Source: a virus | IMG/VR virus record: IMGVR_UViG_3300046048_000257 | Span: 22,879 to 86,878 of that record | DNA length: 64,000 nt | Direction: 5' to 3' (one strand) | Shown: positions 4,702 through 61,482 of the stretch, piece after piece | Numbering within the stretch: the stretch's first letter is position 1 | Layout: every line of letters starts with the position of its first letter | Position numbers and translations under genes: made by a program | The notes under the pieces: model-generated | What the model was told of the DNA's origin: nothing | Database searches by the model: none | Seen by the model: the letters and a program-made list of their open reading frames with translations, nothing else

Positions 4702-4711
4702 AGGAGGGCGT

Positions 4712-6092: not shown

Positions 6093-6093
6093 C

Positions 6094-7343: not shown

Positions 7344-7354
7344 GGAGGTATATT

Positions 7355-9252: not shown

Positions 9253-9283
9253 GATGGCAGCCGGTAACCCTAAGCGCCCCGTG

Positions 9284-9316
9284 TAGGGCCTCTGAGTGAG
9301 CCTGAGGGGTATTTTT
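9284..9316 (+). terminator. Possible hairpin terminator
   Basis: Short stem around CCTC...GAGG followed by TATTTTT between the portal-linked gene and the sugar dehydratase. A near-identical 20-mer, CCCCGTGTARGGCCTCTGAG, occurs at 9277-9296 and again at 56214-56233. The stem is weak, so termination would be partial. Confidence 0.4.
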
Positions 9317-9332
9317 GAACAGGAGCAGAACT

Positions 9333-10319
9333 ATGAAAAAGCTACTTATTACCGGTGGCTGCGGTTTTGTAGGGCACCACGTAATAGAGCACTTTTTGAA
9401 AGCTACCAAGTGGCAAATTATTACTTTTGATAAACTAACTTATGCCGCCAGTGGACTGGACCGGGTGCGGGATATTCAGGCCTATGATAGCAAGCGGGTG
9501 GCGTTTTATTCACTGGACTTTAGTGTGCCCATATCCCATGGGGTACTGCGGGAGTGTAGGGATGTGGATTATATACTGCACTTAGGGGCTGAAACCCATG
9601 TGGATAATTCCATAGTGGACTGTATGCCTTTTGTTTACAGTAACGTACTGGGCACGGCTAATATGCTGGAGTTTGCAAGGCTCTGCCAGCGCCTCCGGGC
9701 TTTTATATATTTCAGCACTGATGAGGTGTATGGCCCGGCGCCTCCGGGGGTGGCGTATAAGGAGTGGGACCGGTATAACTGCACTAATCCGTATGCAGCT
9801 ACCAAGGCCGCTGGTGAGGAGCTGGTGCTGGCGTTTATGAATACCTACGGTGTGCCCGGTTTCATAACTCATACCATGAATATCATAGGTGAGCGCCAGC
9901 ACCCGGAAAAATACCTGCCTAAGTGTATCCGGGCCGTGCAGCAGGGCACTAAGTTAACCATACATGGCAGCCCGGAGGGTAAACCGGGCTCACGCTTTTA
10001 TATCCATGCCCGTAATGTGGCCCACGCCCTGCACTGGCTGCTGGATAAGTTTGAGCAGCGAGAAAAATATAACATAGTGGGTGAGCGGGAGGTGGATAAT
10101 TTAGAGCTGGCTAAGCTGGTGGCCTCCGTTATGGAGCAGCCGCTGGACTATGAGCTGGTGGACTTTCACAGTAGCAGACCGGGCCATGACCTGCGCTATG
10201 CGCTGGATGGTACCCGGATGGCGGATATGGGCTGGAGTGTGCCCATGGCTTTTGAGGATACTGTGGCCAGTACGGTGCGCTGGACTTTAGATAACCCGGA
10301 GTGGTTAGATACCAAGTGA
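9333..10319 (+). CDS. RmlB-like NAD-dependent sugar nucleotide 4,6-dehydratase
   Basis: 328 residues of the extended SDR family. TGGCGFVG (about 7-14) binds NAD, FDKLTYAAS (32-40) is typical of RmlB, FSTDEVYG (127-134) carries the Thr-Asp-Glu used in dehydration, and YAATK (154-158) is the catalytic Tyr/Lys pair. It probably acts on dTDP- or UDP-glucose to give a 4-keto-6-deoxy sugar. It sits alone between portal and MuF genes behind a hairpin, like an accessory (moron) gene. ATG 9333 is chosen for AGGAG spacing. Confidence 0.87.
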   Translation: MKKLLITGGCGFVGHHVIEHFLKATKWQIITFDKLTYAASGLDRVRDIQAYDSKRVAFYSLDFSVPISHGVLRECRDVDYILHLGAETHVDNSIVDCMPFVYSNVLGTANMLEFARLCQRLRAFIYFSTDEVYGPAPPGVAYKEWDRYNCTNPYAATKAAGEELVLAFMNTYGVPGFITHTMNIIGERQHPEKYLPKCIRAVQQGTKLTIHGSPEGKPGSRFYIHARNVAHALHWLLDKFEQREKYNIVGEREVDNLELAKLVASVMEQPLDYELVDFHSSRPGHDLRYALDGTRMADMGWSVPMAFEDTVASTVRWTLDNPEWLDTK

Positions 10320-10329
10320 GGAGGTAATT

Positions 10330-10599
10330 ATGTTAAGTGAGCCTAAAACGGATAGGGAGTGGCAGGCCCGTATGGATGCTGAAACACTGGCGCAGGCTGA
10401 AAAAATAAAGGCGGATAAAGCCCGGCTGGAGGCTGCGCAGAAACAGGCTAAACTGATGGCGAATGATAAGCGTGAGGAGGCCACGGCCATGAGCAAGATA
10501 GCCGGGCAGGCCTCTGGTACCGATGATGCAAAAAAACCCGATAAAGAGCCGCTCAGGGGCTCTGGTAACCCTTTTAACATAGGGGTGAGGATAAAGTAA
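10330..10599 (+). CDS. Small coiled-coil protein
   Basis: 89 residues, Lys/Glu/Ala-rich helix over about residues 5-60, then a flexible tail ending in a short hydrophobic motif. GAGGAGG precedes the start. It lies directly upstream of the MuF gene. It may be a small head-assembly helper. No family is recognised. Confidence 0.65.
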   Translation: MLSEPKTDREWQARMDAETLAQAEKIKADKARLEAAQKQAKLMANDKREEATAMSKIAGQASGTDDAKKPDKEPLRGSGNPFNIGVRIK

Positions 10600-10600
10600 C

Positions 10601-47988: not shown

Positions 47989-48015
47989 GTGCTGGAGGAT
48001 GAGGACTAAAGGCGT

Positions 48016-48050
48016 GGCCGGGTGTTAGTTTACCCGGCCATTTTTTTTTT
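48016..48050 (+). terminator. Rho-independent terminator
   Basis: GGCCGGGT (48016-48023) pairs with ACCCGGCC (48032-48039), followed by about ten T residues. It ends the lysis-block transcript before the early control region. Confidence 0.92.
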
Positions 48051-48395: not shown

Positions 48396-48475
48396 ACCCG
48401 GCAACGGAGGCCGGGCCGGACCCCGAAACGCCCCCAGCGGGCATAACAGAGTAAGCAAGACCCGCTGCAAAGCGC
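48396..48475 (+). ncRNA. Structured early leader
   Basis: CCCGGC and GCCGGG (about 48397-48416) and AGCGGG with CCCGCT (about 48437-48466) form two stems in the leader before the first small gene. The leader may be regulatory. No known riboswitch is recognised. Confidence 0.4.
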
Positions 48476-48489
48476 AAAGGAGGATAAGG

Positions 48490-48594
48490 ATGCCTAAGGC
48501 TAACGGTGGTGGCCGCATGGAAGTGAGCGGCTGCAAAGCATACACGAAAAAGCACCACACGCACTTAGGACTTAAACAACACCGGGAGGCGTGA
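48490..48594 (+). CDS. 34-residue basic leader peptide
   Basis: A strong AAAGGAGG lies 6 bases before the ATG. The product is rich in Lys, His and Gly. Its TGA stop lies in the loop of the first two-state RNA element (GGAGGC-GTGA-GCCTCC), so a terminating ribosome would open that hairpin. It may be a real small protein or a regulatory leader peptide. Confidence 0.6.
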   Translation: MPKANGGGRMEVSGCKAYTKKHHTHLGLKQHREA

Positions 48595-48642
48595 GCCTCC
48601 ACATAAGCGGCCAGCACGCTGGCTGCTTATTTGATGGCTCAC
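48584..48642 (+). promoter_or_regulatory. Two-state RNA element, copy 1
   Basis: Hairpin A: GGAGGC-GTGA-GCCTCC. Central hairpin B: ATAAGC...GCTTAT. The 3' half of A (GTGAGCC, 48591-48597) can also pair with GGCTCAC (48636-48642) around B. Here both arms of the outer stem differ from the other copies in a compensatory way, supporting the pairing. Confidence 0.65.
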
Positions 48643-48665
48643 ACTAACTTTAAATAGGAGGCAAT

Positions 48666-48971
48666 ATGTTTACGGTAATTAAAGCTGAGCACAGTGACTT
48701 TACTGGCGGGCACACTGCCCTCACTTTCACTAATATAGGTAACAGCCGATATAAGGGCACCACCACGGTATGGGTGCTGGTAAGTGATGACTTTCCTACT
48801 GCTGAGGATGGCCTGATAGCTCTGTACCGCAAAAAGGATGCAGAGGCCATGGCCGCTCACTTTAATAAAGTGGGCTATGATGGCAGCACAGGTGACCCCA
48901 TGATGGTTTTTCAGAAGCACCTGCGGGATATTGAGGACTGGGATACACTGGATAAAATTAAGGAGGTGTAA
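48666..48971 (+). CDS. Hypothetical early protein
   Basis: 101 residues, alpha/beta, with a WVLVSDDFP motif and an acidic C-terminus. It is flanked by two-state RNA elements. AGGAGG precedes it. No family is recognised. Confidence 0.65.
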   Translation: MFTVIKAEHSDFTGGHTALTFTNIGNSRYKGTTTVWVLVSDDFPTAEDGLIALYRKKDAEAMAAHFNKVGYDGSTGDPMMVFQKHLRDIEDWDTLDKIKEV

Positions 48972-48981
48972 ATATGAGTGT

Positions 48982-49040
48982 GGGGCTTTGAGCCCCCACT
49001 TAAGTGGGCACAGTGTGCCTGCTTAATTGTGGGCTCAAAA
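48982..49040 (+). promoter_or_regulatory. Two-state RNA element, copy 2
   Basis: Hairpin A GGGGCT-TTG-AGCCCC. Hairpin B TTAAG..GGCACAGTGTGCC..CTTAA. The arm TTTGAGCC can instead pair with GGCTCAAA at the 3' end. It ends about 20 bases before the next ribosome site. Confidence 0.65.
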
Positions 49041-49066
49041 CTTTAACCTTTTATGGAGGTGCTTTT

Positions 49067-49480
49067 ATGGATACCAAGTTTTCAGTTTTCACTGGTGTTA
49101 AGTTTTATTACCTTAACTCACTGGCTGAGATAGCTAAAACTTTTACCCGTAATGACCTGAGCAAGCCCGGCGTGCATGTGCAGGTACTGGCGGGCGCCGT
49201 GGTGGTGGGTGAGCTGAATACGGCTAAGCTGCTGGATGAGCTGTATGAGCCGGAGCTGGTGACCTGCCCGGCATGCAGCGGGCGGGTGGCTGATGTTGCA
49301 GGCCTGCCTAATGTTAAAGGCCAGTGCACTGAGTGCGGCGGTCTGTTGCTCAGTGACCATGGCGATATGGCCACCAGCTGGTGTGAGTGCGGTGGTAAGG
49401 ATGAGCGGTATTACTGGCGCCCGGATGGCAGCCACGGCTGGCTGTGTACCGGTTGCCACGGTATCACTCAGACCGGTTAG
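49067..49480 (+). CDS. Early protein with double zinc ribbon
   Basis: 137 residues. The first 65 look like a small alpha/beta domain. The rest has four CxxC or CxC pairs (CPAC, CTEC, CEC, CTGC), consistent with two zinc ribbons. Such proteins bind RNA polymerase, DNA or tRNA-modifying factors. The ATG at 49067 follows GGAGG. Confidence 0.72.
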   Translation: MDTKFSVFTGVKFYYLNSLAEIAKTFTRNDLSKPGVHVQVLAGAVVVGELNTAKLLDELYEPELVTCPACSGRVADVAGLPNVKGQCTECGGLLLSDHGDMATSWCECGGKDERYYWRPDGSHGWLCTGCHGITQTG

Positions 49481-49485
49481 GGTGT

Positions 49486-49544
49486 GGGGCTTTGAGCCCC
49501 CACTTAAGTGGGCACAGTGTGCCTGCTTAATTGTGGGCTCAAAA
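49486..49544 (+). promoter_or_regulatory. Two-state RNA element, copy 3
   Basis: Nearly the same sequence as copy 2, with hairpin A, hairpin B, and outer arm GTGGGCTCAAAA. Confidence 0.65.
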
Positions 49545-49571
49545 TTAACCTTAATATAATAGGAGGCTAAA

Positions 49572-50165
49572 ATGATGTTTAAGGATATTAACCACGGGCT
49601 GGACCGCATTTTTTGCAAGCGTGAAACTGAGGCTGATGAGTGGCGGTACTTTTACCGGGGCACAGAATACGCCACGCTGGATGAGGCTGAGGCTGATGAG
49701 TGGCGGTACTTTTACCGGGGCACAGAATACGCCACGCTGGATGAGGCCAAGGCCGCTGTGGATGCCTTAATGGGCCCGGATGTGATACCCGCAGCTATTG
49801 AGGCGGCTAATACCACTGACTGGGGTAAAAAGGGCAGCATGACTGATACACAGCGCCACGTACTTTACCAGCTGGCCAGAGCCCTGATGGAGCGGGGTGG
49901 GCTGGGTGAAAAGCACATGGCCGGGTATGAGTTTAAGCAGTTTGATATTACATGGGGGCTGAGTAACAGCTTTTATGTGGTGGCTGAGATAGGCCGTAAG
50001 GGTGATGAGGGCAGCATGGCCTCTATTATATGCCGGGACCGCTGGCACATAGCAGTGGGCCCACGGGGTGGACTTACTAATATGAACGCTGCCCGGTACA
50101 GCAAGCGGCGCAAGGGCTTTCATAACTGTGTTAACTGGGGCTGCACCGGCTTTGGGAGGAGCTGA
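49572..50165 (+). CDS. Early protein with 20-residue tandem duplication
   Basis: 197 residues. EADEWRYFYRGTEYATLDEA occurs twice in a row due to an exact 60-nt tandem copy. The rest has an alpha/beta pattern ending in a basic, Cys-containing tail. Both repeat copies being identical at DNA level means a recent event. No family is recognised. Confidence 0.68.
   Translation: MMFKDINHGLDRIFCKRETEADEWRYFYRGTEYATLDEAEADEWRYFYRGTEYATLDEAKAAVDALMGPDVIPAAIEAANTTDWGKKGSMTDTQRHVLYQLARALMERGGLGEKHMAGYEFKQFDITWGLSNSFYVVAEIGRKGDEGSMASIICRDRWHIAVGPRGGLTNMNAARYSKRRKGFHNCVNWGCTGFGRS
49627..49746 (+). repeat. Exact 60-nt tandem duplication
   Basis: 49627-49686 and 49687-49746 are identical, giving an in-frame 20-residue duplication. 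It is long enough to be lost by recombination, so it is either recent or selected. Confidence 0.95.
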
Positions 50166-50171
50166 TGCGCC

Positions 50172-50231
50172 GGAGGCTTTGAGCCTCCACTTAAGTGGGC
50201 ACACTGTGCCTGCTTAATTGTGGGCTCAAAA
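50172..50231 (+). promoter_or_regulatory. Two-state RNA element, copy 4
   Basis: Hairpin A is GGAGGCT-TTG-AGCCTCC (both arms changed versus copies 2 and 3). Hairpin B and the outer arm GTGGGCTCAAAA are kept. Confidence 0.65.
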
Positions 50232-50255
50232 TTAACTAACTTAATGGAGGTGCTT

Positions 50256-50615
50256 ATGTTTTCAAATGGTGATTATTCTAATGAGTTTGAGGCTGCTTAT
50301 GATAAGGCCCGGCAGGAGTATGACCCTGCGGATGAGCTGGACAAAATTGTGGCTCATATTGAGGCCGGTAAGTTTGTGGTGGTAATTGAGGTGGAGGCCT
50401 GCTGCCCCTACACGGATGCCCTGCTGGGTGTAGAGCGCCGGGTGGGCTCAGTGCATGATACTAAGGATGCAGCCATGGCTGATGCTAAAGCGCTGGGTGG
50501 TGGCGCTTATGTTATGGGCCCGGATGACCGGCTGCCTACTGAGCGGGCCATGGATGCTGCACTGGGTGAGCTGCTGTATGACTATGATAATGATGATGAG
50601 GATATACCTTTTTAA
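50256..50615 (+). CDS. Acidic early protein
   Basis: 119 residues, acidic, with DELDKIVAHIEAGKF and a very acidic C-terminus (DYDNDDEDIPF). Such acidic small proteins sometimes mimic DNA or bind host enzymes. This is only compositional. Strong ATGGAGG ribosome site. Confidence 0.65.
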   Translation: MFSNGDYSNEFEAAYDKARQEYDPADELDKIVAHIEAGKFVVVIEVEACCPYTDALLGVERRVGSVHDTKDAAMADAKALGGGAYVMGPDDRLPTERAMDAALGELLYDYDNDDEDIPF

Positions 50616-50628
50616 AGGAGGTGAGCAC

Positions 50629-50835
50629 ATGCGCCAGTTTTACATAGACCCCAGCCGTGGGCTCATGCTCACGGCTTTGCCGGATGCTGAAACCTTTACA
50701 GATGAGGATGGCCTGTGGTACTGGTGGCCCTGCTTTCCGGGCTGCCTGCCTGATGGTGACCCGCTGGGCCCCTTTGATACTGAGGAGGAGGCCATAGAGG
50801 ATGCCCGCCAGTTTAATGACTGGTGCACAGGCTAA
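50629..50835 (+). CDS. Small acidic Trp-rich protein
   Basis: 68 residues from ATG 50629, 6 bases after AAAGGAGG. The GLWYWWPCFPGC segment and acidic C-terminal helix (DTEEEAIEDARQF) are notable. No known function. Confidence 0.65.
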   Translation: MRQFYIDPSRGLMLTALPDAETFTDEDGLWYWWPCFPGCLPDGDPLGPFDTEEEAIEDARQFNDWCTG

Positions 50836-50841
50836 ACTCAC

Positions 50842-50897
50842 GGAGGCTTTGAGCCTCCACTTATGGGCATACTGTGCCCATAATTGTGGGCTCAAAA
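50842..50897 (+). promoter_or_regulatory. Two-state RNA element, copy 5
   Basis: Hairpin B differs (TTATGGGCA...TGCCCATAA) but remains fully paired, which is covariation support. Hairpin A and the outer arm are as in copy 4. Confidence 0.65.
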
Positions 50898-50923
50898 TTA
50901 ACCTTTTAAATAGGAGGTACGGT

Positions 50924-51352
50924 ATGAACTACATTAAAAAGATGCAGCACACAGTGACCATTTATGAGCAGGCCATTAAGGAGCTGCGCAGCTATCTGGC
51001 GCTGCCTAAGTTTTACAGCCCTAATGACTATGTGCACACTGCGGACCTGCACCTGCGGCTGCGGGAGCTGGTGGATGACAAGCTGAGTGCTTTGGAGGCT
51101 GGTGAGTACCCGGAGCATAAACCGCAGGCTTTTGCAGCGCTGGATAAACATGACCGCAGCATAGTGACCATACTGGCCATGGACCCGGTGGAGGCAGATG
51201 CCATGGTACAGCGTGAGCTTACACTTAACCCCAGCCGTGAGCCGTATTACAGATGGTGGGATGCTGCTGGGCGCCGGATGCGCACGGATAGTGGTGAGGT
51301 ATGGACTAAGGCCGACTATCAGGACTATCTGGCCGAAACACAGGGCGCCTAA
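50924..51352 (+). CDS. Helical early protein
   Basis: 142 residues. Helical N-terminal half (HTVTIYEQAIKELRSYL), a middle with heptads, and a C-terminal part with YYRWWDAAG. AGGAGG is 7 bases upstream. No known family. Confidence 0.65.
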   Translation: MNYIKKMQHTVTIYEQAIKELRSYLALPKFYSPNDYVHTADLHLRLRELVDDKLSALEAGEYPEHKPQAFAALDKHDRSIVTILAMDPVEADAMVQRELTLNPSREPYYRWWDAAGRRMRTDSGEVWTKADYQDYLAETQGA

Positions 51353-51358
51353 AGCGCC

Positions 51359-51418
51359 GGAGGCTTTGAGCCTCCACATGGTGGGCCCTGCGGGGCCCCC
51401 TATGTGGATGTTTAAAAC
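51359..51418 (+). promoter_or_regulatory. Two-state RNA element, copy 6 (divergent)
   Basis: Hairpin A is GGAGGCTTTGAGCCTCC. Hairpin B has CACAT..GGGCCC..GGGGCCC..ATGTG. The outer 3' arm is degenerate (GATGTTTAAAAC), so this copy may only form A and B. Confidence 0.5.
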
Positions 51419-51440
51419 TAACCTTAAATAGGAGGTGCGT

Positions 51441-51635
51441 ATGAGTTTAGTAACCATAGACTACTATGAGGCGGATGATAGTGTGCACGTTTTTGTGGCC
51501 GGGTATGCCATTAACAAAGCAGATGCCACTGTGCACGCTGCTGTGGCTATCGCCAAAGCAGCGGGGCAGGCTGAGGTGCCCATAACTACATACTGTAAGG
51601 CGGGCCCGCCACAGCGCACTGCCATTACCGTTTAA
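51441..51635 (+). CDS. Small early protein
   Basis: 64 residues, alternating strand-helix pattern with VAGYAINKADATVHAAV. Strong AGGAGG. No known motif. Confidence 0.6.
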   Translation: MSLVTIDYYEADDSVHVFVAGYAINKADATVHAAVAIAKAAGQAEVPITTYCKAGPPQRTAITV

Positions 51636-51640
51636 TGTGT

Positions 51641-51699
51641 GGGGCTTTGAGCCCCCACTTAAGTGGGCCCACAGGGCCTGCTTAATTGTGGGCTCAAAA
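51641..51699 (+). promoter_or_regulatory. Two-state RNA element, copy 7
   Basis: Hairpin A GGGGCTTTGAGCCCC. Hairpin B TTAAG..GGCCC-ACA-GGGCC..CTTAA, with paired changes relative to copy 2. Outer arm GTGGGCTCAAAA. Confidence 0.65.
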
Positions 51700-51720
51700 C
51701 TTTAACTAAGGAGGTAACAT

Positions 51721-52050
51721 ATGGCCACAGTAAGGCGTAACACTAAGATGTTTAAAGAAGTGCTCAACAGCGCCACCGGGTGTGTGGTGTACTCAGAGCA
51801 TAACCAGTACCAAGGCAAAAAATGCAGCCCTGAGGCGGCTGTGCAGGCGCTGGAAAAATTCAGCTTTGCCAAGCTGGTGGAGCAGGATGGCGGGCGCTTT
51901 GTGGTGCACGTACATGACCGCTGCTGGTTTGAGCTGGAGCATGGGCAGGCGCTGCCCAGCACATGCAGGCGCTGTGGTGGTGAGGTAACCACTGCGGGTG
52001 AGGGTAACCTGCGGTACACCGGCTGTGAGGTGTGCGGTGAGCCGCACTAA
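51721..52050 (+). CDS. Early protein with C-terminal zinc ribbon
   Basis: 109 residues. The first 75 residues form an alpha/beta domain and the end has CRRCGG and CEVCG pairs of a zinc ribbon. It lies just upstream of the large helicase gene and its RNA element. May act in transcription or replication. Confidence 0.68.
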   Translation: MATVRRNTKMFKEVLNSATGCVVYSEHNQYQGKKCSPEAAVQALEKFSFAKLVEQDGGRFVVHVHDRCWFELEHGQALPSTCRRCGGEVTTAGEGNLRYTGCEVCGEPH

Positions 52051-52058
52051 TACTAACC

Positions 52059-52113
52059 GGGCCCTGTGGGCCCATATGAGCCACCCAGCCGGGTGGCTGA
52101 TATGCACCCACAG
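52059..52113 (+). promoter_or_regulatory. Two-state RNA element, copy 8 (very divergent, same layout)
   Basis: Hairpin A GGGCCC-TGT-GGGCCC. Hairpin B ATATGAGCCACCC..GGGTGGCTGATAT. The CTGTGGG arm of A can pair with CCCACAG (52107-52113). The sequence is different from other copies but the layout is the same. Confidence 0.5.
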
Positions 52114-52150
52114 AGTGCAGTAACTAAAACCCATAATAAGGAGGCCCATA

Positions 52151-54910
52151 ATGAGCCAATTTGTAACGATTACTAAGAGTGAGTTTGAGGATATGCTTAA
52201 CAGTATCCACAGAGGCACAGAGCTGGTGAGCGGTAATGAGGATACCAGCTGCTGGGAGTATGTTTATGAAGTGCCCACCAGCCGTGATGATGTGGCCGTG
52301 CGTATTTACAGCACCGTGGATAAGCGCAGTGGGCACACCCGTGGTAAGGGTGAGGATGCCATACGGGTGGTGTTTTGGGATACCCGTAATGACCGCCCTG
52401 TGGGTAAGGGTAAGAAAATCCTGAGGGTGGAGGGCGCCACTACCATACAGGACCGCATTAAGGCCCGTGTTAATGACTTTTTGAATAATGCCCACGGTGT
52501 GAGCATTATAGACTTTGGCTATGTGCGTGCGGTGCTGGAGGCTAACAGCGGTGCTAATTTTGCCCGCAAGCTGCTGGAAAATCTGGACCAGTGGGGCAGC
52601 CTTACTGATAACCAGCTGGCCTATGTGCTGGGTGATAAAACCCCTAAAGGCTGGGATACTTTTGAGGCCAAGGCTAAAAAAGATAATCCCACGTTTTTGG
52701 AGGACTACATGGCCGCTAACGGTGAGGATGACCCGGATAGCCCTGAGGGTAATGATGGTGGCCAAAATGGCCCCTCAGGCGCCCCCAGTGGCCCCTCAGG
52801 AGGCCGTACACCTGTGGCAGGTGCCTCAGGCCCCACGGTGGTGCCCGGTGGTACCACCAGCGTTATAGAGCAGCAGGAGCAGACCAGCCAGCCTATCTAT
52901 GGAGGCCTCCGGGGCACTGCCCAGTATCCGTACTGGCAGTATCCGTTTAAAGAGTTTAACCCGGTGCAGACCGCCACGCTGCCTTATGCGCACCAGACTT
53001 GTAACCTTATCATAGGGGCTAACACCAGCGCTGGTAAGACTATTTGCGCAGAGCTGCTGATGGACCATATCCTGCGGCAGGAGCACCATAACCGGGTAAT
53101 TTACCTGAGCCCGCTTAAGTCACTTACGCAGGAAAAATATGAGGACTGGCAAAAGCGGTACCCGGAGCATGAGATAACCATTTTAACGGGTGACTACACG
53201 CTGAGTGAGGCCATGAAAGCCAAGCTGGCTAAAAGCCACATTATTGTTATGACCTCTGAAATGTGTGACTCACGCACCCGGCGCATGCACAGTGAAAAAA
53301 ATTACTGGCTGCGTGAGGTGGGGCTGGTGATAGTGGATGAGTCACACATACTGAGCACAGGCCGTGGCCATGCTGTGGAGTCTGGTATAATGCGCTTTAC
53401 CCGTATCAATAAGGCCGCCCGTGTGCTTTTTCTGAGTGCCACCATGCCTAACTGTGATGAGCTGGCCCAGTGGGTAACTAAGTTAAATGATAGGCCCACT
53501 GAGGTGGTATTTAGTACGTGGCGCCCGGTGGCTTTGGAAATGCACTACATGGGCCACCGTGTGGCTGATAGGGATTACTGGGCCACGCAGGAGTATAAGC
53601 GCCGCATGGCCGTGGATATTGTTATGGGGCGCCACCCGGCTGCTGCGGGTAAAGCCACGGAAAAGTTTTTAGTATTCTGCCATGATAAGGGCACAGGCCG
53701 TAATATCGTAAAGCGGCTGGAGCAGGAGGGCGTGGCTGCTCACTTCCATAATGCTGATTTAGATATGGCGGAGCGGCTGGGCATAGAGGCCAGTTTTGCG
53801 GACCGCAGCAACGGCCTCCGGGTGCTGGTATCGACCAGCACGCTGGCATGGGGCCGTAACCTGCCTGCCCGTAATGTGGTGATAGTGGGCGTAAATCGTG
53901 GGCTCAGTGAGGTGGATGAGCTGGATATTATACAGATGGCTGGCCGTGCAGGCCGGTACGGTATAGACCCGGCTGGTACCGTGTATCTGCTGTGCCCGGA
54001 GGGCAGTGAGCGTACATGGGAGCATACTTTTAAAAACCCCCGCCCGGTAACCTCTGTGCTCAATAGCCGTGAGGTAATGGCTTTCCACGTACTGGCTGAG
54101 GTGGAAAACCGTGAAATAAAAAGCGTGCGGGACCTGCTGAAATGGTACCAGCGCTCACTGGCCGGGCACCAGAGTCTTAAGCCCTTTGAGCTGGAGGATG
54201 CACAGGACCTTTTTGATGACCTGCGTGATATGGAAATGCTGGAAACTAAGGGCGATAATTACATGCACCCCAGTATCACGGGACTGGGCCGGGTATCTGC
54301 ATGGCTCTATTTTAGCCCGTATGATGTATATGACTGGTACTGTAACTTTAACACCTATTTTGACCCGGCCACGGAGCAGAATGACTTAACGCTGGCATGG
54401 GCACTGGGTGATGTTACCAGTAATGACTGGGGCTATGTGCCCGCTGAGCTGCGTGAGCAGGCTGATGAGTACGCATACCAGCTGCGGGCCAAGGGTGTGC
54501 GGACCGGTGGGGGTATCTGCTCAGCTATCGCAGCGCACCTGCTTATCACTGGCCAAAAAGGCACCGGGACCCTGCGGGCCCTTATGCGCCAGATTGTTTA
54601 CGATATTAGGCGCCAGAGCCAAGCGCTGGGCCTGATAGATAGCATGTACGCTAAGTGGCAGCAGGATGGCCTGTGGCAGATTTTACCCCAGCGGATTATG
54701 TACGGGGTGACCATGGATATGGTGGAGTTAACCCGTGTGCCCGGTATAGGCGGAGCCACTGCCCGCAAGTTGTTTGATAGGGGCATAACCAGCATTAAGG
54801 CGCTGGCGGATGAGGCTAACTTTACCGTGGTGCTGCAAGTGGTGACTCCAGCTAAGGCCAAGGCTTTTGCGGAGGCTGCACGCAGCCTAACGGATGAGCC
54901 CCCGTTTTAA
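52151..54910 (+). CDS. Hel308/Ski2-like SF2 DNA helicase with novel N-terminal domain
   Basis: 919 residues. An unusual N-terminal domain (about 1-110) with VVFWDTRNDRPVGKGKK, a helical part, a Gly/Ser/Pro linker (about 196-240), then the helicase: Walker A GANTSAGKT (289-297), DESH (396-399), SAT (429-431), QMAGRAGR (595-602), a winged-helix/ratchet part and a helix-hairpin-helix PGIGGATARKLF (about 864-875). It probably unwinds or restarts forks. The neighbours are early small genes. Confidence 0.88.
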   Translation: MSQFVTITKSEFEDMLNSIHRGTELVSGNEDTSCWEYVYEVPTSRDDVAVRIYSTVDKRSGHTRGKGEDAIRVVFWDTRNDRPVGKGKKILRVEGATTIQDRIKARVNDFLNNAHGVSIIDFGYVRAVLEANSGANFARKLLENLDQWGSLTDNQLAYVLGDKTPKGWDTFEAKAKKDNPTFLEDYMAANGEDDPDSPEGNDGGQNGPSGAPSGPSGGRTPVAGASGPTVVPGGTTSVIEQQEQTSQPIYGGLRGTAQYPYWQYPFKEFNPVQTATLPYAHQTCNLIIGANTSAGKTICAELLMDHILRQEHHNRVIYLSPLKSLTQEKYEDWQKRYPEHEITILTGDYTLSEAMKAKLAKSHIIVMTSEMCDSRTRRMHSEKNYWLREVGLVIVDESHILSTGRGHAVESGIMRFTRINKAARVLFLSATMPNCDELAQWVTKLNDRPTEVVFSTWRPVALEMHYMGHRVADRDYWATQEYKRRMAVDIVMGRHPAAAGKATEKFLVFCHDKGTGRNIVKRLEQEGVAAHFHNADLDMAERLGIEASFADRSNGLRVLVSTSTLAWGRNLPARNVVIVGVNRGLSEVDELDIIQMAGRAGRYGIDPAGTVYLLCPEGSERTWEHTFKNPRPVTSVLNSREVMAFHVLAEVENREIKSVRDLLKWYQRSLAGHQSLKPFELEDAQDLFDDLRDMEMLETKGDNYMHPSITGLGRVSAWLYFSPYDVYDWYCNFNTYFDPATEQNDLTLAWALGDVTSNDWGYVPAELREQADEYAYQLRAKGVRTGGGICSAIAAHLLITGQKGTGTLRALMRQIVYDIRRQSQALGLIDSMYAKWQQDGLWQILPQRIMYGVTMDMVELTRVPGIGGATARKLFDRGITSIKALADEANFTVVLQVVTPAKAKAFAEAARSLTDEPPF

Positions 54911-54921
54911 TCTTTAACCAT

Positions 54922-54953
54922 GGCGCCGGGTAAGGAGGGCCCGGCGCCATTTT
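54922..54953 (+). terminator. Rho-independent terminator
   Basis: GGCGCCGGG (54922-54930) pairs with CCCGGCGCC (54940-54948), followed by ATTTT. It ends the helicase transcript. Bases 54954-55057 hold no gene I can support. Confidence 0.75.
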
Positions 54954-55057
54954 GTCACTTTTTGTGCAGTGTACTGGGTAAACACCTGAGCCCCTATGAG
55001 GGCCAGATGCCCCGCCAAAGCGGATGAGGTGGGCGGCGGAGGTACCCGGAGGCTGTT

Positions 55058-55285
55058 ATGCAGCACATAGTTAAAATATTTCACAGCAGCGGTAAGCGGC
55101 TGGAGGATGCAGTAAATACTTTCATGGATGAGTGGGCTGAGGAGCATTTAGGCCACCTCACTATTTTTGGAGTTACTGCGCTGGATATTCAAAAAATAGG
55201 TGGCGTGGATATTGAGATATGGGTGACTTTTGAGCGCCACGCTGCCACAGATATGGAGCTGGCCCTGCTGGAGGGCAGCCGGTAG
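55058..55285 (+). CDS. Small early protein
   Basis: 75 residues with a strand-helix pattern (IVKIFHSSGKRLEDAVNTF) similar in outline to ribosome-hibernation-like folds, but not enough to assign. GGAGG precedes it. An RNA element follows. Confidence 0.6.
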   Translation: MQHIVKIFHSSGKRLEDAVNTFMDEWAEEHLGHLTIFGVTALDIQKIGGVDIEIWVTFERHAATDMELALLEGSR

Positions 55286-55290
55286 GCTCC

Positions 55291-55352
55291 GGGGGCTTTG
55301 AGCCCCCACTTAAGTGGGTGCAGTGGGCGCCTGCTTAATTGTGGGCTCAAAA
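55291..55352 (+). promoter_or_regulatory. Two-state RNA element, copy 9
   Basis: Hairpin A GGGGGCT-TTG-AGCCCCC. Hairpin B TTAAG..GGGCGCC-type stem..CTTAA. Outer arm GTGGGCTCAAAA. Confidence 0.65.
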
Positions 55353-55376
55353 CTAACTAACTTATGGAGGTGTACT

Positions 55377-56123
55377 ATGACTTTAATGAGCAGCAGCAGT
55401 GTAACCAAGCGTGTGGATGAGGCAGAGGTAATGGCCATACCAGCCCCGGAGTGGACTGATACATGGCACCCGGTAAGCCATGGGCTTATCATTAACGCAC
55501 TTAACAAAGCCTGCCACGGCGCCGGTATTGAGGTGACCGGGCGGGCGTACAGCGTAAATGAGCCGGGCAGCCGGATGTTTGGGGTGTGGAATTTAGCTTT
55601 AGGTAATGGCGCCATGCAGTATGCGCTGGGCTTTAGAAACTCCACGGATAAAACCATGGTGGTGGGTATCACAGCAGGCACTAATGTGCTGGTGTGTGAT
55701 AACCTCTGTTTTAGCGGTGATTTTATAGCCTTTAGGAAACACACCAGCGGGCTGGATGAGGATGAGCTGCGCCAGATAGCAGCGGAGGCTGTAAAGGGCG
55801 CCGTGGTGAAAATGGACCGCTTTTATGAGTGGCATAAAAGCCTCCATAAATACTATGTGCCCCGCACTGATTTAAAAGTGCTCACTTTTGATATGATTAA
55901 CCGGGGTGTGTTTAGCGGCGGGCAGTTTAGTAACTTTATGAGCGCACTGGATGAGGAGCGGGCCATAATCCATGGCACGGCGCTGGATGGTGCCACCTCA
56001 CTGTATAGCGTGCACGGAGCGGCCACCCGCCTCATGCGTACATGGAACCTGCTAAGGGTATCAGATGCCACCAAGCTGCTTAACGGTATCTGTGATGATT
56101 ACCTGCTGAGCAGAGCAGCGTAA
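55377..56123 (+). CDS. DUF932-like protein
   Basis: 248 residues. ALGFRNSTDKTMVVGITAGT and VLVCDNLCFSGDF followed by a KHT motif match the DUF932 family, found in many phages and plasmids in replication or DNA metabolism regions. The biochemical role is not established. It has a strong GGAGG and follows a two-state RNA element. Confidence 0.75.
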   Translation: MTLMSSSSVTKRVDEAEVMAIPAPEWTDTWHPVSHGLIINALNKACHGAGIEVTGRAYSVNEPGSRMFGVWNLALGNGAMQYALGFRNSTDKTMVVGITAGTNVLVCDNLCFSGDFIAFRKHTSGLDEDELRQIAAEAVKGAVVKMDRFYEWHKSLHKYYVPRTDLKVLTFDMINRGVFSGGQFSNFMSALDEERAIIHGTALDGATSLYSVHGAATRLMRTWNLLRVSDATKLLNGICDDYLLSRAA

Positions 56124-56129
56124 CCACGG

Positions 56130-56198
56130 AGGCGCTGGGCATGGAGGGCTCAGCGCCCTTATACATGAGCCCTGCTGTATCGGCAGGCCTCATGTATG
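56130..56198 (+). other. Pair of strong inverted repeats
   Basis: GGCGCTG/CAGCGCC (about 56130-56157) and ATACATGAG/CTCATGTAT (about 56160-56196) lie between DUF932 and the next gene. An open frame from 56141 runs through them, but the dense palindromes and a good start at 56264 argue for non-coding DNA. Confidence 0.5.
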
Positions 56199-56263
56199 GG
56201 AGTGGACTAAAAACCCCGTGTAAGGCCTCTGAGGGGGCCACAGACCCTAAAATGGAGGTGATT

Positions 56264-56566
56264 ATGGCAGACCATACTTTTTGCAGGCTTATGCTCAGGC
56301 AGGTAATGCCATGGGTAAACAGAGTAACCACCCCGGAGGTGCGTAAGGCCACGTGGCCGTGGCACTTCCATAGGGACCACCATGAGTGGCATGGGCCGGG
56401 TGGATTTTACTGGCATGGCAGTGCCTGCTGTAAGTACATGGCCCGATATGAGGGCTGGTGCGCATGGCTTAAGCAGCACCACCCGGATGCTTATGTAGCT
56501 ATGGAGCAGGAGGCTACGGAGGCGGCTGATAAATTATATAGGGAGGAGGTGAGTAAAGATGGCTAA
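56264..56566 (+). CDS. His/Trp-rich small protein
   Basis: 100 residues with an unusual density of His, Trp and Cys (WPWHFHRDHHEWHGPGGFYWHGSACC described in pieces), suggesting metal binding. The C-terminal helix is acidic. ATG 56264 follows GGAGG by 6 bases. Function unknown. Confidence 0.65.
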   Translation: MADHTFCRLMLRQVMPWVNRVTTPEVRKATWPWHFHRDHHEWHGPGGFYWHGSACCKYMARYEGWCAWLKQHHPDAYVAMEQEATEAADKLYREEVSKDG

Positions 56567-56753
56567 AAAACCGCATGACTTTAGGGATATGAGCACCATA
56601 GTGTGTGCCCACCCCGGATGCACACGTAAGATTAAAAAAAATGTGGTGGCACGTAAGGCGCCTAAAACCCGGCTGCTGTGTAAATACCATTACTGGGTAG
56701 GCCATGGGCACTTAAGCCACAGGGCAGGTAAACTGCCTGCACAGCCGGTATGA
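56559..56753 (+). CDS. Small zinc-finger protein
   Basis: 64 residues, very basic, with CAHPGC and CKYH, a Cys/His set fit for one zinc. It may bind nucleic acid. It overlaps the preceding gene by 8 bases. Confidence 0.65.
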   Translation: MAKKPHDFRDMSTIVCAHPGCTRKIKKNVVARKAPKTRLLCKYHYWVGHGHLSHRAGKLPAQPV

Positions 56754-56758
56754 TGTAC

Positions 56759-56817
56759 GGGGGCTTTGAGCCCCCACTTAAGTGGGCCCACAGGGCCTGC
56801 TTAATTGTGGGCTTAAA
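56759..56817 (+). promoter_or_regulatory. Two-state RNA element, copy 10
   Basis: Hairpin A GGGGGCT-TTG-AGCCCCC. Hairpin B as in copy 7. The outer arm is GGCTTAAA, which still pairs with TTTGAGCC through one G-U pair. Confidence 0.6.
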
Positions 56818-56851
56818 CTTAATTATTAACCATTTTGCTAAGGAGGTAAGT

Positions 56852-57361
56852 ATGCCACGTTTACATTTTGTGAAAAAGGCCCGTAAGGATAACCCGGTAG
56901 CCAAAGCTGGTGAAAGCTATTACTGGTGGCAGCACGCTTTTAGCCGTATCAGTTATAGTAAGGAGCGGCCAAAGCCCAGCCAGATGACGCAGAGTGAATT
57001 TATGAGCGAGTACCTGAGCATGGGTGAGGACTTTGAGGAGGCCGTAAACGGTGCTGTGAGTATGGAGGAGCTGGATGATGCCCGGCGTGAGCTGATAGAA
57101 CGGGCGGAGCAGCTGCGGGATGATACTGAGGAAAAGCTGGGTAATATGCCGGACTCTTTACAGGAGGCTGATACCGGGCAGATGATGCAGGAGCGCATAG
57201 ATGGACTGGATGGCTGGATAAGTGACTTAGAGGCTGTGGATTTAGATGAGCTGGGCCCGGATGAGGATGACCTTGACCCGGAGGAGGATATGGATGAGGC
57301 CCTGAGTAACTGGCTGGATGAAAAAAAGAAGGAGCTTACCGGGCTGGACCCCGGACTTTAA
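56852..57361 (+). CDS. Acidic coiled-coil protein
   Basis: 169 residues. A basic N-terminal 45 residues, then helical acidic coiled coil (about 60-130) and a very acidic stretch (DELGPDEDDLDPEEDMDEA). May be a DNA mimic or adaptor. No family is recognised. Confidence 0.65.
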   Translation: MPRLHFVKKARKDNPVAKAGESYYWWQHAFSRISYSKERPKPSQMTQSEFMSEYLSMGEDFEEAVNGAVSMEELDDARRELIERAEQLRDDTEEKLGNMPDSLQEADTGQMMQERIDGLDGWISDLEAVDLDELGPDEDDLDPEEDMDEALSNWLDEKKKELTGLDPGL

Positions 57362-57371
57362 GGAGGTGACT

Positions 57372-57470
57372 ATGGCACAGACTATTTTACTAACTGCTAT
57401 AAGCATGGGCATAGCCCTGCTGATGGCCGTAACCTTACACCGGCTGTTTAGCCAGCTGGTGCTGTTTTAG
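57372..57470 (+). CDS. 32-residue membrane peptide
   Basis: A single hydrophobic helix (TILLTAISMGIALLMAVTL) with a short basic end. AAGGAGG is 6 bases upstream and the next gene follows at once. The strong ribosome site supports expression. It could alter host membrane processes or be a small regulator. Confidence 0.6.
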   Translation: MAQTILLTAISMGIALLMAVTLHRLFSQLVLF

Positions 57471-57481
57471 GGAGGTACACT

Positions 57482-57877
57482 ATGGTACTAAGGACTATGG
57501 ACTTACTCAAAAGCGGCATTAATGTGCTCATGGACCGTGAGCTGCTAACGGTTACCACTATTAAAAAGAAGTTTGTGGACCAGATGCCTGAGCTGGGATA
57601 CGGTGAGTTTTGTAAGGCAGTAGTGCATGGCCGTGATACCACAGATGCGCTGGGCTTTGTAGGCCGGGTGCGTGATGCACTGGTGGTGATTAAGGTGGGT
57701 GGTAACTTTAAAAAAGTCACTGCCCGTGACTGGGTGGAGTGGCGGACTAACCAGATATTTTTTGATGCACCGGGCGCTGATACCCAGCTGGCAGAGCAGC
57801 GTAAGCGTATAGGTGCGGACTCACAGCAGCAGGCACGGGCGGAGTGGGAGGCTCTGCCTCAGTTATTTGAGGACTAA
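57482..57877 (+). CDS. Hypothetical early protein
   Basis: 131 residues. Helical start (LKSGINVLMDRELLTVTTI), then beta-type VVIKVGGNFKKVTARDW and a Gln/Ala-rich end. No known motif. GGGAGG precedes it. Confidence 0.6.
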   Translation: MVLRTMDLLKSGINVLMDRELLTVTTIKKKFVDQMPELGYGEFCKAVVHGRDTTDALGFVGRVRDALVVIKVGGNFKKVTARDWVEWRTNQIFFDAPGADTQLAEQRKRIGADSQQQARAEWEALPQLFED

Positions 57878-57883
57878 TGTACC

Positions 57884-57941
57884 GGGGGCTTAAGCCCCCA
57901 CATATGAGCCCATTTACTGGGCCCATATTTGTGGGCTTAAA
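57884..57941 (+). promoter_or_regulatory. Two-state RNA element, copy 11
   Basis: Hairpin A is GGGGGCTTAAGCCCCC and the outer arm is GGCTTAAA. Both the 5' arm (TTAAGCC) and the 3' arm changed together, which supports the outer stem. Hairpin B ATATGAGCCCA..TGGGCCCATAT. Confidence 0.65.
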
Positions 57942-57968
57942 CTTAACTATTTAACTAAGGAGGTAAAT

Positions 57969-58352
57969 ATGGACCGTGAGCAAAGTATTTTTTTAGTGCC
58001 CTCTATGTATGCGGATATGCTGGATAGGTTTACAAAAGCAGCTATGGAGGCGGATGATTATGAGGAGCTGGGGGCAGCTGTGGAGGGGCTGTGTGAGGAT
58101 GTGGATAATTTAAAGGCCACCCTCAGTGTATGGGCGGGTGAGGTATATGACTTTGTGCATAACCCGCCTATGTACCCAAAACATGAAAACTGGCCCGGTG
58201 AGATTTTGCCAGACTTTCACGCCATGAGTGAGGAGGAGCGGCACCTGTGGCATTTTAGATGGCACAGGCGTATAATTACTGATTTAATGCCCTCTAAATA
58301 TACTCTGGCAGAGGCTATGGAGCGGGATGATTTTATACCAGATGACTGTTAA
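57969..58352 (+). CDS. Acidic helical early protein
   Basis: 127 residues. Helical and acidic, with a Pro/His-rich middle (VHNPPMYPKHENWPG). AAGGAGG lies 7 bases upstream. No family is recognised. Confidence 0.6.
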   Translation: MDREQSIFLVPSMYADMLDRFTKAAMEADDYEELGAAVEGLCEDVDNLKATLSVWAGEVYDFVHNPPMYPKHENWPGEILPDFHAMSEEERHLWHFRWHRRIITDLMPSKYTLAEAMERDDFIPDDC

Positions 58353-58358
58353 TAACCC

Positions 58359-58418
58359 GGAGGCTTTGAGCCTCCACATATGAGCCCAGTAAGTGGGCTC
58401 ATATTTGTGGGCTCAAAA
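58359..58418 (+). promoter_or_regulatory. Two-state RNA element, copy 12
   Basis: Hairpin A GGAGGCT-TTG-AGCCTCC. Hairpin B is a perfect 11-bp stem ATATGAGCCCA/TGGGCTCATAT. Outer arm GTGGGCTCAAAA. It ends 20 bases before the next ribosome site. Confidence 0.65.
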
Positions 58419-58444
58419 TTAACTATTTAACTAAGGAGGTAAAT

Positions 58445-59335
58445 ATGCCTAAAATCTGTTATGTAAGCTGGAGCCCGGCGCCGGATAGCATAGCCATGGT
58501 GGATACCGCTAATGAGATTATAACGGGGTATCTGGCCAAAGGCTTTGACCTAACCCTGCGCCAGTTGTATTACCAGTTTGTGGCCCGTGACCTGATACCT
58601 AATAACATTAAAAGCTATAACCGGCTTAAGGATGTTATGAACCGGGCCCGGCTGGCAGGACTGGTGGACTGGGAGGCCATTACGGACCGCACCCGCAATT
58701 TAGAGCAAAACAGCCACTGGACTAACCCCGGCAGCATTATCCGCAGTGCTGCGTATAGCTTTATGGTGGACCACTGGGCGGACCAGCCTAACCGGGTGGA
58801 GGTATGGATAGAAAAGGATGCCCTTAAGGGTGTAATAGCCGGTATCTGTGAGCGGCTGGATGTGCCTTACTTTTCATGCCGGGGATATACCAGCGTAAGT
58901 GAAATGTGGCGGGCTGGTAACCGGCTGATAGCTAACCGCAAGGCTGGCCAGACCTCATGGGTAATACACTTAGGTGACCATGACCCCTCCGGCATAGATA
59001 TGAGCCGGGATATTGAGGAGCGGCTGGAGCTGTTTACTGGGCACACTGTGCACCTTAACCGCATAGCACTTAACATGGACCAGATAGAGGAGCTGGACCT
59101 GCCCCCTAATCCGGCTAAGTTAAGTGATAGCCGGGCACAGGCTTACATAGCTAATTATGGCCGTGATAGCTGGGAGCTGGATGCACTGGACCCGCAGTAT
59201 ATGAGTGATATGATAGCAGCTGTGGTTAAAAAGCTGCGGGACCCGGACCTGTACGCAGCCACCCGTGAGCGTGAGGCCGCTATGAAAGCCAAGCTGGATG
59301 AGCTGGCGGAGGAGTATGGCCATGATAACTGGTAA
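58445..59335 (+). CDS. TOPRIM protein related to topoisomerase VI A / Mini-A
   Basis: 296 residues. TLRQLYYQFV (about 37-46) is an RxxYY motif like the catalytic Tyr region of Spo11/TopVIA. Then a winged-helix-like region, EKDALKG with Glu123, and LGDHDPSGIDM with Asp178 and Asp180, the TOPRIM DxD. This size and layout match the Mini-A group described from phages and plasmids, possibly a DNA cleaving or remodelling enzyme. No B (ATPase) subunit is seen. Confidence 0.75.
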   Translation: MPKICYVSWSPAPDSIAMVDTANEIITGYLAKGFDLTLRQLYYQFVARDLIPNNIKSYNRLKDVMNRARLAGLVDWEAITDRTRNLEQNSHWTNPGSIIRSAAYSFMVDHWADQPNRVEVWIEKDALKGVIAGICERLDVPYFSCRGYTSVSEMWRAGNRLIANRKAGQTSWVIHLGDHDPSGIDMSRDIEERLELFTGHTVHLNRIALNMDQIEELDLPPNPAKLSDSRAQAYIANYGRDSWELDALDPQYMSDMIAAVVKKLRDPDLYAATREREAAMKAKLDELAEEYGHDNW

Positions 59336-60099: not shown

Positions 60100-60112
60100 T
60101 ATAATGGCACCA
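60100..60112 (+). promoter_or_regulatory. Promoter for a leaderless transcript (candidate)
   Basis: TATAAT (60100-60105) lies 6 bases before ATG 60112, so a transcript would start at about the ATG itself. No Shine-Dalgarno is present at the usual distance. A clear -35 is lacking. Confidence 0.45.
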
Positions 60113-61482
60113 TGACTGATAAAATTGAAATTTTAGATAATGTGTATGCTAAGGCTGCTAAGCCGCTGTGGGACCATATAGGTGCCTGCCTGTATTATAA
60201 GCGCAAGTTTGTAAAACAAAAGCAGCATGGTACTGAGGTAAAGCAGGAGGATGCCAGTATGCTGGACCGGCGCAGTGGTAAGTTTTTAGCTGGGCTGCTG
60301 CCCCGTGTAATGCAATACCTCAGGAGCCAAGGTGTGGACTTTGAGCTGGCCGGGATGATGGAGCCGATGGCCCCCGCCCGGCCACCCACACTTAAGGGCA
60401 TTACCCTGCGCCCGGAGCAGCAGGAGCTGATACAGCAAGTAAACGCATACCAGCGGGGCGTGATAAAGGCGCCCACGGGCAGCGGTAAGACTATCATGGC
60501 GCTGGGCGCCATAAGCCAGTGGCCGGATGCCCGTGTGCTTATACTGGTGCACCGTAAGGAGCTGCTTACTCAATTTGCGGACCGGATAATGGCGCACATG
60601 GACCGGATACACATGCAGACTATCATGGAGGGCTGTACCAAGCGCATAGAGGCCCCCCTGATAGTGGCCATGGTGCAGACTCTGATAAAGCGGGACTGGC
60701 AGGAGCTGTATAACCGTTTTGACATATTAATAGTGGATGAGGTGCACCATGCTGTGGATGAGGATAGCCAGCTGGGCACACTGATAACCCAAAACATAAG
60801 CCCCATAAAAATAGGCTTTACGGCTACCCCTCCAGATATGGTGCATGACTTAAATAAGGCACTAACACTGGAGGGCATGATAGGCCCGGTGATAGGTGAC
60901 CTGAGTGTTAAAAAAGGGCAGGAGCTGGGCATAATAGCGCACCCATATGTTACCCTCATGGGTGTGCCCTATAACACCGATATAGCAGAGCTGCGTAAGT
61001 ACCGGGATATTTACGTGGCTGGGGTGGTGGAAAATACCGCCCGTAATGCTATCCTAACCAAAGCAGCCAAAGCACGTGCTATGGCCGGACTGAGCAGCCT
61101 TACCATAATTAAAGAGATAGACCACGGTAACCGGCTGGTGGCCATGGCGGAGCGCTTTGGGCTCACTTCTATTTTTATCCATGGCGGGACCTCCGCAGAC
61201 CAGCGGCAGGCTGTAAAGCAGGCGCTGGAAAATAAAACCCATTTAAACGTGATAGTAACTGACATATGGCGTGAGGGTGTGGATATACCCACGCTGGACT
61301 GTGTAATAATAGGCGCCGCCCCTAAAAGCCAGATTTATACTTTACAGGCCGTGGGCCGGGGTATGCGGACCGCTGAGGGTAAGGAGTGGGTGGAAATAGT
61401 GGATTTTTTGGACCCATATAAATATCTGGCCCGCCACTGCGTGGGCCGGTTAAATATGTATAAGGAGGGTGGGTGGCTCTAA
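60112..61482 (+). CDS. SF2 DNA helicase (UvsW/RAD25-like)
   Basis: 456 residues. APTGSGKT (120-127), DEVHH (209-213), FTATPP and QAVGRGMR are the SF2 motifs in order, with a helical N-terminal domain of about 95 residues. The pattern matches phage UvsW-like helicases that unwind R-loops and branched DNA. It probably helps the switch from origin-based to recombination-based replication. It may be translated without a leader. Confidence 0.87.
   Translation: MTDKIEILDNVYAKAAKPLWDHIGACLYYKRKFVKQKQHGTEVKQEDASMLDRRSGKFLAGLLPRVMQYLRSQGVDFELAGMMEPMAPARPPTLKGITLRPEQQELIQQVNAYQRGVIKAPTGSGKTIMALGAISQWPDARVLILVHRKELLTQFADRIMAHMDRIHMQTIMEGCTKRIEAPLIVAMVQTLIKRDWQELYNRFDILIVDEVHHAVDEDSQLGTLITQNISPIKIGFTATPPDMVHDLNKALTLEGMIGPVIGDLSVKKGQELGIIAHPYVTLMGVPYNTDIAELRKYRDIYVAGVVENTARNAILTKAAKARAMAGLSSLTIIKEIDHGNRLVAMAERFGLTSIFIHGGTSADQRQAVKQALENKTHLNVIVTDIWREGVDIPTLDCVIIGAAPKSQIYTLQAVGRGMRTAEGKEWVEIVDFLDPYKYLARHCVGRLNMYKEGGWL

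Follow-up and report, generated by a model that had tools for sequence, protein, structure and literature searches.

What does a phage gain by placing the same structured RNA, able to fold in two ways, behind one small gene after another? The question is raised by a 64,000-nucleotide (nt) stretch of viral DNA, here called the window, which spans positions 22,879–86,878 of an 86,878-base pair (bp) IMG/VR virus contig and belongs to a tailed phage that encodes terminase, helicases and holin. An earlier, sequence-only reading described twelve copies of a repeated element in gaps among small plus-strand genes between 48.6 and 58.4 kilobases (kb), and proposed that they serve as switches, attenuators or processing sites. 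All twelve copies lie and fold as that reading described. Of its three proposals, processing is favoured here: with a probability of about 0.5, each copy may be an intercistronic processing site of a polycistronic early mRNA, a view that draws its main support from related phages, whose corresponding gaps are occupied by hammerhead and pistol ribozymes.

Two competing folds between small early genes

Read from 5' to 3', a copy consists of A5 (GGAGGC or GGGGGC), a 3–5 nt loop, A3 (GCCTCC or GCCCCC), a hairpin B and a distal arm. A3 can close hairpin A with A5; in the second pairing, the loop and most of A3 (TTTGAGCCY) pair instead with the distal arm GGGCTCAAA around B. In most copies, two C.U mismatches separated by a CA/TG step lie between this outer arm and B; the paired total is 20–23 bp in every copy. 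The cores of copies 2 and 3 are identical; copy 8 shares little sequence with the others, its structure being unchanged. The sequence of the mismatch zone is not kept in copies 1, 6 and 8, while the pairing is kept in copies 6 and 8. The copies are as follows, with scores from R1, a covariance model built from eleven of them with copy 8 held out.

48585..48642, plus strand, copy 1: A5 GGAGGC; outer arm GTGAGCC/GGCTCAC; B of 12 bp; 64 bits
48981..49039, plus strand, copy 2: bulged A, GTGGGGC/GCCCCCAC; outer arm TTTGAGCCC/GGGCTCAAA; B of 12 bp; 87 bits
49485..49543, plus strand, copy 3: core as in copy 2; 87 bits
50172..50230, plus strand, copy 4: A GGAGGC-TTTGA-GCCTCC; outer arm of 9 bp; B of 12 bp; 86 bits
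50842..50896, plus strand, copy 5: B shortened to 10 bp with a compensating change, TTATGGGCAT/GTGCCCATAA; 66 bits
51359..51416, plus strand, copy 6: outer arm of 7 bp, TTTGAGC/GTTTAAA, with two G.U pairs; a middle helix, TCCACATGG/CTATGTGGA, replaces the mismatch zone; 58 bits
51640..51698, plus strand, copy 7: 85 bits
52059..52113, plus strand, copy 8: A GGGCCC-TGT-GGGCCC; outer arm CTGTGGG/CCCACAG; precedes the gene for a 919-residue helicase; recovered as the held-out copy, E 0.006
55291..55351, plus strand, copy 9: 78 bits
56759..56817, plus strand, copy 10: outer arm TTTGAGCCC/GGGCTTAAA with one G.U pair; 83 bits
57884..57940, plus strand, copy 11: A GGGGGC-TTAA-GCCCCC; outer arm TTAAGCCC/GGGCTTAA; 60 bits
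58359..58417, plus strand, copy 12: B ATATGAGCCCA/TGGGCTCATAT; precedes a topoisomerase-like gene (58445–59335); 73 bits

Several lines of sequence analysis support this architecture. A detector blind to sequence looked only for the layout, a hairpin A with a 3' half that can instead bridge B and pair with a distal arm. It picks up 10 of the 12 copies on the plus strand and nothing on the minus strand, and returns 0, 0, 0, 1 and 0 matches in five dinucleotide shuffles of the window; copies 6 and 10 escape it, and in both the outer arm includes G.U pairing. Model R1 recovers the held-out copy 8 at the right place (20 bits) and finds no further credible copy over the 86.9-kb contig, so that the twelve are confined to a single 9.8-kb gene block. 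Covariation was assessed on the alignment by pair counts against shuffles. Of the cells counted, 91% are paired, against 22–50% with slid partners, and the covariation score of the main fold is matched in 0 of 500 shuffles, that of hairpin A, which is weaker, in 10 of 500. With hand-set arms, the paired positions drop from 100% to 63% in the outer arm when partners are swapped between copies, from 99% to 53% in hairpin B and from 95% to 81% in hairpin A; as the copies are related rather than independent, all of these pairing and shuffle figures are descriptive and not probabilities. The concerted arm changes that had been noticed in copies 1, 8 and 11 and in hairpin B are real. Finally, the helices contain 242 Watson-Crick pairs, 22 G.U pairs and one A.C mismatch (copies 2 and 3, with their identical cores, are both counted). 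The opposite strand would turn each G.U into A.C, and the great excess of G.U therefore shows selection on the RNA in the mRNA sense rather than on a DNA palindrome.

The competition between the two folds is likewise real and nearly balanced in energy. The minimum free energy fold consists of the outer arm and B (-29 to -42 kcal/mol including flanks), with folding z-scores of -2.5 to -6.2 for the cores. In the nearest-neighbour model used, the difference between outer arm plus B and A plus B ranges from -4.2 to +1.5 kcal/mol, so that forcing A plus B costs 4.2 kcal/mol at most. Copies 6 and 11 lose no energy under this constraint, the constrained fold of copy 6 not being hairpin A itself. Isolated 5' products are predicted to refold hairpin A. 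That two competing helices stay near-equal in predicted energy despite many sequence changes suggests that both have a use.

Placement is as regular as pairing. In copies 2–12, A5 starts 4–9 nt, mostly 4–6 nt, past the stop codon of the preceding gene; copy 1 is the exception, its upstream 34-codon open reading frame (ORF; 48490–48594) ending within the loop of hairpin A. Every copy is followed by the same layout of AT-rich linker (69–89% A+T between element and ribosome site), an AGGAGG-type Shine-Dalgarno (SD) sequence and a start codon. The distance from the last paired base to the SD is 11–26 nt in all copies, rather than the 15–35 bases first proposed. Block gaps longer than 60 nt all carry a copy, with two exceptions. 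One of these, 54911–55057, is the sole large gap without any form of the element and has a G+C-rich 12-bp hairpin (54920–54950) 3' of the 919-residue helicase gene. The other, 56124–56263, holds a divergent relative in which, on folding, A and B lie together inside a further arm. The mutual exclusion of A and the outer arm thus applies to the twelve copies and not to this gap, where both fit; model R1 does not detect this form. A hammerhead-like outer arm around both A and B, considered as a candidate architecture, occurs only here.

48643..48668, plus strand: example of the downstream half, after copy 1, with AT-rich linker, SD GGAGG and ATG at 48666
56124..56207, plus strand: divergent relative in gap 56124–56263; a 4-bp arm, CCAC/GTGG, encloses hairpin A (starting GGCGCTGGGC) and hairpin B (starting CTTATACATGAG)

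The block probably consists of early genes, judging from its content of replication-type helicases and small orphan genes with nothing structural downstream. Pfam gives zero matches for ten block products. Immediately 5' of the block, a hairpin followed by a T run (48008–48047) is the likely terminator of the preceding lysis-type genes, and the gene at 49572–50165 contains a tandem duplication of about 60 bp (49627–49746, EADEWRYFYRGTEYATLDEA twice).

Self-cleaving ribozymes in the corresponding gaps of related phages

Rfam identifies none of the window copies, and the claim that the element belongs to no described family holds as far as Rfam 15. At gathering cut-off no family matches the window, no hammerhead hit occurs within 48400–58700 at E values up to 10, and the type II hammerhead core (CUGAUGA .. 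GAAA .. UH) is absent from the elements on inspection by eye. Nor is a near relative of the block present in the collections searched, Megablast of the block against the phage collection giving no match. Exact pattern scans of IMG/VR for the element yielded 0 matches to one pattern and two unrelated chance matches to another, and model R1 finds no copy in 66 other viral records (18 plus 48, one in both).

A search with the major capsid protein identified 80 contigs at 60–97% identity, several of them 75–95 kb long. One 69% relative (L184, DIXN01000059.1) lies inside a Desulfovibrio genome bin; there are hints that the hosts of this phage family are Desulfovibrio-like. Five of the capsid relatives contain matches to Rfam Hammerhead_II at E values up to 0.1, many above the curated cut-off: 11 in G001 (L150/L151; capsid identity 83%), 14 in G002 (L173; 84%), 8 in G005 (L176; 78%), 4 in G004 (L175; 80%) and 3 in G012 (L182; 75%). 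These 40 matches occupy consecutive gaps of the early block in arrays of 3–14. In a sixth relative, G014 (L183; 79%), five pistol ribozymes (RF02679) and two Rfam hammerhead hits lie within the gaps of one operon (4000–11500, minus strand), compared with no pistol match in the window phage. Rfam at loose thresholds on the window block, G014 and a sister phage, G003, returned nothing credible beyond the pistol and hammerhead hits in G014.

The gaps of the relatives, read singly, follow the order found in the window: stop codon, ribozyme within a few bases, AU-rich linker, SD and ATG. The distance from stop to element (about 3–13 nt) and the gap length (about 80–120 nt) are alike in relatives and window, and nearly every such gap is filled. 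Two genes anchor the comparison.

52151..54910, plus strand: helicase gene, 919 residues, following copy 8; in G003 a different element, that phage's own, stands before the ortholog
60112..61482, plus strand: DEAH-type helicase gene; its orthologs in the ribozyme-bearing relatives lie downstream of their arrays

The DEAH helicase is found downstream of the array in the window, G001, G003, G004, G005 and G014; its position in G002 fits only if that contig is circularly permuted. Two further helicase relatives, G017 and G018, have the helicase in common with the window and lack the window element. The element is also absent from the relatives of the topoisomerase-like gene that were searched, and that gene itself was not found in the capsid relatives. 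In another contig, L009 (1096–4953), the helicase ortholog is in two parts, separated by a distinct 240-residue ORF and by a long hairpin whose end is an SD; this looks like an inserted gene or an intron-like element.

Gap fillers other than known ribozymes occur among the relatives too. One of the 13 gaps read in G002 holds a long imperfect hairpin instead of a recognisable ribozyme, and so does one gap in G014 (9517 downward, arms TAATTTGAAT/ATTCAAATTA). In each of these two phages it is the block's only gap lacking such a ribozyme, an observation that favours processing hairpins in the window. G008 (L178) has long, bubble-containing hairpins in early gaps 5' of the DEAH helicase, at 17875 and at 16668 on the minus strand; their loop complements the bubble's 3' side (GTCAAG/CTTGAC; CAATTG), and they resemble neither the window nor the G003 type.

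The sister phage G003 (L148, capsid identity 81%) contains no hammerhead. In its place stand eight copies of another structured element (209–9026, minus strand), located after stop codons, which has no match in Rfam 15. In each, a 7–8 bp outer arm of free but complementary sequence (95% paired with its own partner, 50% when swapped) leads through an internal loop of invariant sequence, TCATCGG/CTCATTGGAG, to an inner hairpin. The G003 ortholog of the 919-residue helicase, about 49% identical along its length, directly follows one of these elements, just as the window helicase follows copy 8. Both elements thus occur as copies after stops in a homologous block and set a variable, complementary outer arm around an inner hairpin; the strongly conserved internal-loop sequence and the lack of a hairpin A are peculiar to G003. 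The G003 element is a candidate new ribozyme or protein-binding RNA, and its invariant internal loop makes it the more plausible of the two as a new ribozyme. A single G003-type core with its inner hairpin also appears right after a TAG stop in L194 (7976–8014, plus strand), an apparently unrelated G+C-rich viral contig, where the GGAG of the core likely serves as SD.

Processing, insulation and other explanations

Since two classes of self-cutting RNA occupy the corresponding gaps of relatives, the gaps are most economically read as cut points of the early transcript. Every window copy has the structure expected of a T7-type RNase III site, an intercistronic imperfect hairpin of about two helical turns, and neither of its folds contains an SD or a U-run, which supports processing. 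From these features we infer the cut, its enzyme and the fate of the new ends as follows. In the uncut transcript, TTTGAGCCY would pair with GGGCTCAAA around B, giving the imperfect duplex of 20–23 bp that covariation supports. RNase III would most likely cut this duplex close to the mismatch zone that separates the lower helix from the upper, and the enzyme is assumed to be the host's because no phage-encoded RNase III is recognisable. With its distal partner gone, A3 could then pair with A5, and hairpin A, outcompeted as long as the distal arm is attached, would cap the 3' end of the upstream message, much as stem III closes the upstream cleavage product in a type II hammerhead. The downstream message would carry B and the AU-rich linker close to its start, unless they are trimmed. 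A long early transcript would in this way be split into single-gene messages with structured ends, as ribozyme self-cleavage would do in the relatives, and refolding after cleavage would be the most economical use of two competing folds.

Several points weigh against this interpretation. The relatives are separate contigs with 75–84% capsid identity whose early genes are mostly non-homologous, only the helicase genes being common, and functional equivalence to their ribozymes rests on position and gene order. The enzyme has to be borrowed from the host. T7 R1.1 has a larger mismatch zone than the window copies, of which copy 6 forms a full helix there, and the fold energies come from a model at 37 C that omits tertiary contacts. 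A passive insulator, moreover, accounts for much of the layout. Such a hairpin would remain uncut, blocking ribosomes or exonucleases and keeping the ribosome site free of upstream structure, the same end that ribozymes in the relatives would reach by cutting. Insulation fits the position, which directly follows a stop and is separated from the SD by an AU-rich linker, and also the nearly full independence from sequence exemplified by copy 8. However, a simple hairpin would be enough for this purpose, which leaves the conserved competing hairpin A and its balance superfluous, and the relatives employ RNAs that cleave; insulation by itself is rather unlikely. It is more doubtful still that the element cuts without protein, as a further self-cleaving class beside hammerhead and pistol. 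Two known classes do fill these gaps in relatives, and the A plus B fold sets its hairpins 0–2 nt apart, comparable with stems III and I flanking the type II hammerhead cut. Yet the conserved unpaired core typical of ribozymes is absent, the mismatch zone varying in copies 1, 6 and 8 with the pairing kept in the last two, and no Rfam ribozyme matches the elements.

Regulation by a switch is a similarly doubtful proposition. Here a terminating ribosome, a phage protein or RNA polymerase pausing would set the choice between A and the outer arm, and the genes would form a regulon. The two near-isoenergetic folds speak for it, and the stop codon lies so close 5' of A5 that a terminating ribosome would cover A5. 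There is, though, no conserved ligand- or protein-binding loop, and the SD lies outside both folds in the AT-rich linker, which argues against riboswitches or thermosensors acting through the ribosome site. The attenuator suggestion fares no better: no U-run follows A or the outer arm, and a plus-strand scan for intrinsic terminators (G+C-rich hairpin plus U-run) gives, at the elements, just one weak 5-bp site, inside copy 11. Two further candidates were rejected, a pseudoknot between the A loop and a distal TCAAA, since copies 11 and 8 have loops of 4 and 3 nt, and an anti-SD role for A3 (CCTCC) on the downstream GGAGG, half of the copies having CCCCC. A mobile or recombinogenic palindromic repeat of the REP/MITE type, spreading through gaps with no role as RNA, would explain why several copies are near-identical and two have identical cores. 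It is disfavoured as highly improbable, since all 12 copies share one orientation, in contrast to REP/BIME repeats, G.U pairs far outnumber A.C, placement after stops is exact, compensatory changes are present, and the rest of the genome has none.

A broader, more speculative possibility, itself quite unlikely, is that in this phage family the early block stores a set of mutually replaceable RNA-cutting devices (hammerhead, pistol and two or more undescribed kinds), and that a new class of self-cleaving ribozyme is among them, represented by the window element or, with greater plausibility, by that of G003 with its invariant TCATCGG/CTCATTGGAG core.

Relation to known phage RNA elements

If cleavage at these sites is borne out, one phage lineage would have repeatedly replaced self-cleaving ribozymes, at corresponding places among its early genes, by RNA elements that are cut by protein or work in some other way. 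The long-puzzling intergenic hammerheads and pistols of phages would gain a role, the division of the polycistronic early mRNA, and the search for new ribozymes would gain a rule of position, namely to inspect whatever fills the gap where a relative has a hammerhead. The built-in second fold suggests a simple design, in which the cut through one hairpin frees a second one to shield the newly made end.

Earlier work has described hammerheads between phage genes and, in bacterial genomes, hammerheads in tandem (PMC3088659), and pistol ribozymes are known near phage genes (PMC4604425). In the searchable literature, which leaves most subscription papers outside, neither the window element nor a phage early operon with ribozymes arrayed in most of its gaps was found described. 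Type II hammerheads (RF02276) of the related phages occur in tandem in the corresponding gaps with the same spacing to stop, linker and SD; unlike them, the window elements have no CUGAUGA/GAAA core and follow another pairing scheme. Pistol ribozymes occupy corresponding gaps in G014 and also begin with a small hairpin, but the A loop of the window element measures 3–5 nt, and in copies 8 and 11 it leaves no room for a loop pseudoknot of the pistol kind.

A looser parallel is provided by the ESAS of Cluster K mycobacteriophages, repeated inverted sequences of unknown function upstream of the start codons of many small genes (PMC3203893). As described in that paper, on which the comparison is based, ESAS consist of inverted repeats, 17 bp long, imperfect and conserved in sequence, that have a spacer of mostly 4–13 bp and are tied to a conserved SAS (PMC3203893), whereas the window element has freely varying arms and a third, competing helix. 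In shape the window element matches the RNase III sites of T7, whose early mRNA of about 7,000 nt is cut by the host enzyme at five sites; R1.1, for one, lies between genes 1.0 and 1.1 and forms a hairpin of 60 nt with an internal loop (PMC4858673, PMC6121014). The window differs in its 12 near-uniform copies, its conserved competing 5' hairpin A, the lack of a large asymmetric internal loop and a cleavage that is here presumed. Both systems, however, place imperfect hairpins of about 60 nt between the early genes of one transcript, each built of a lower helix, an irregular middle and an upper helix (PMC6121014, PMC4858673).

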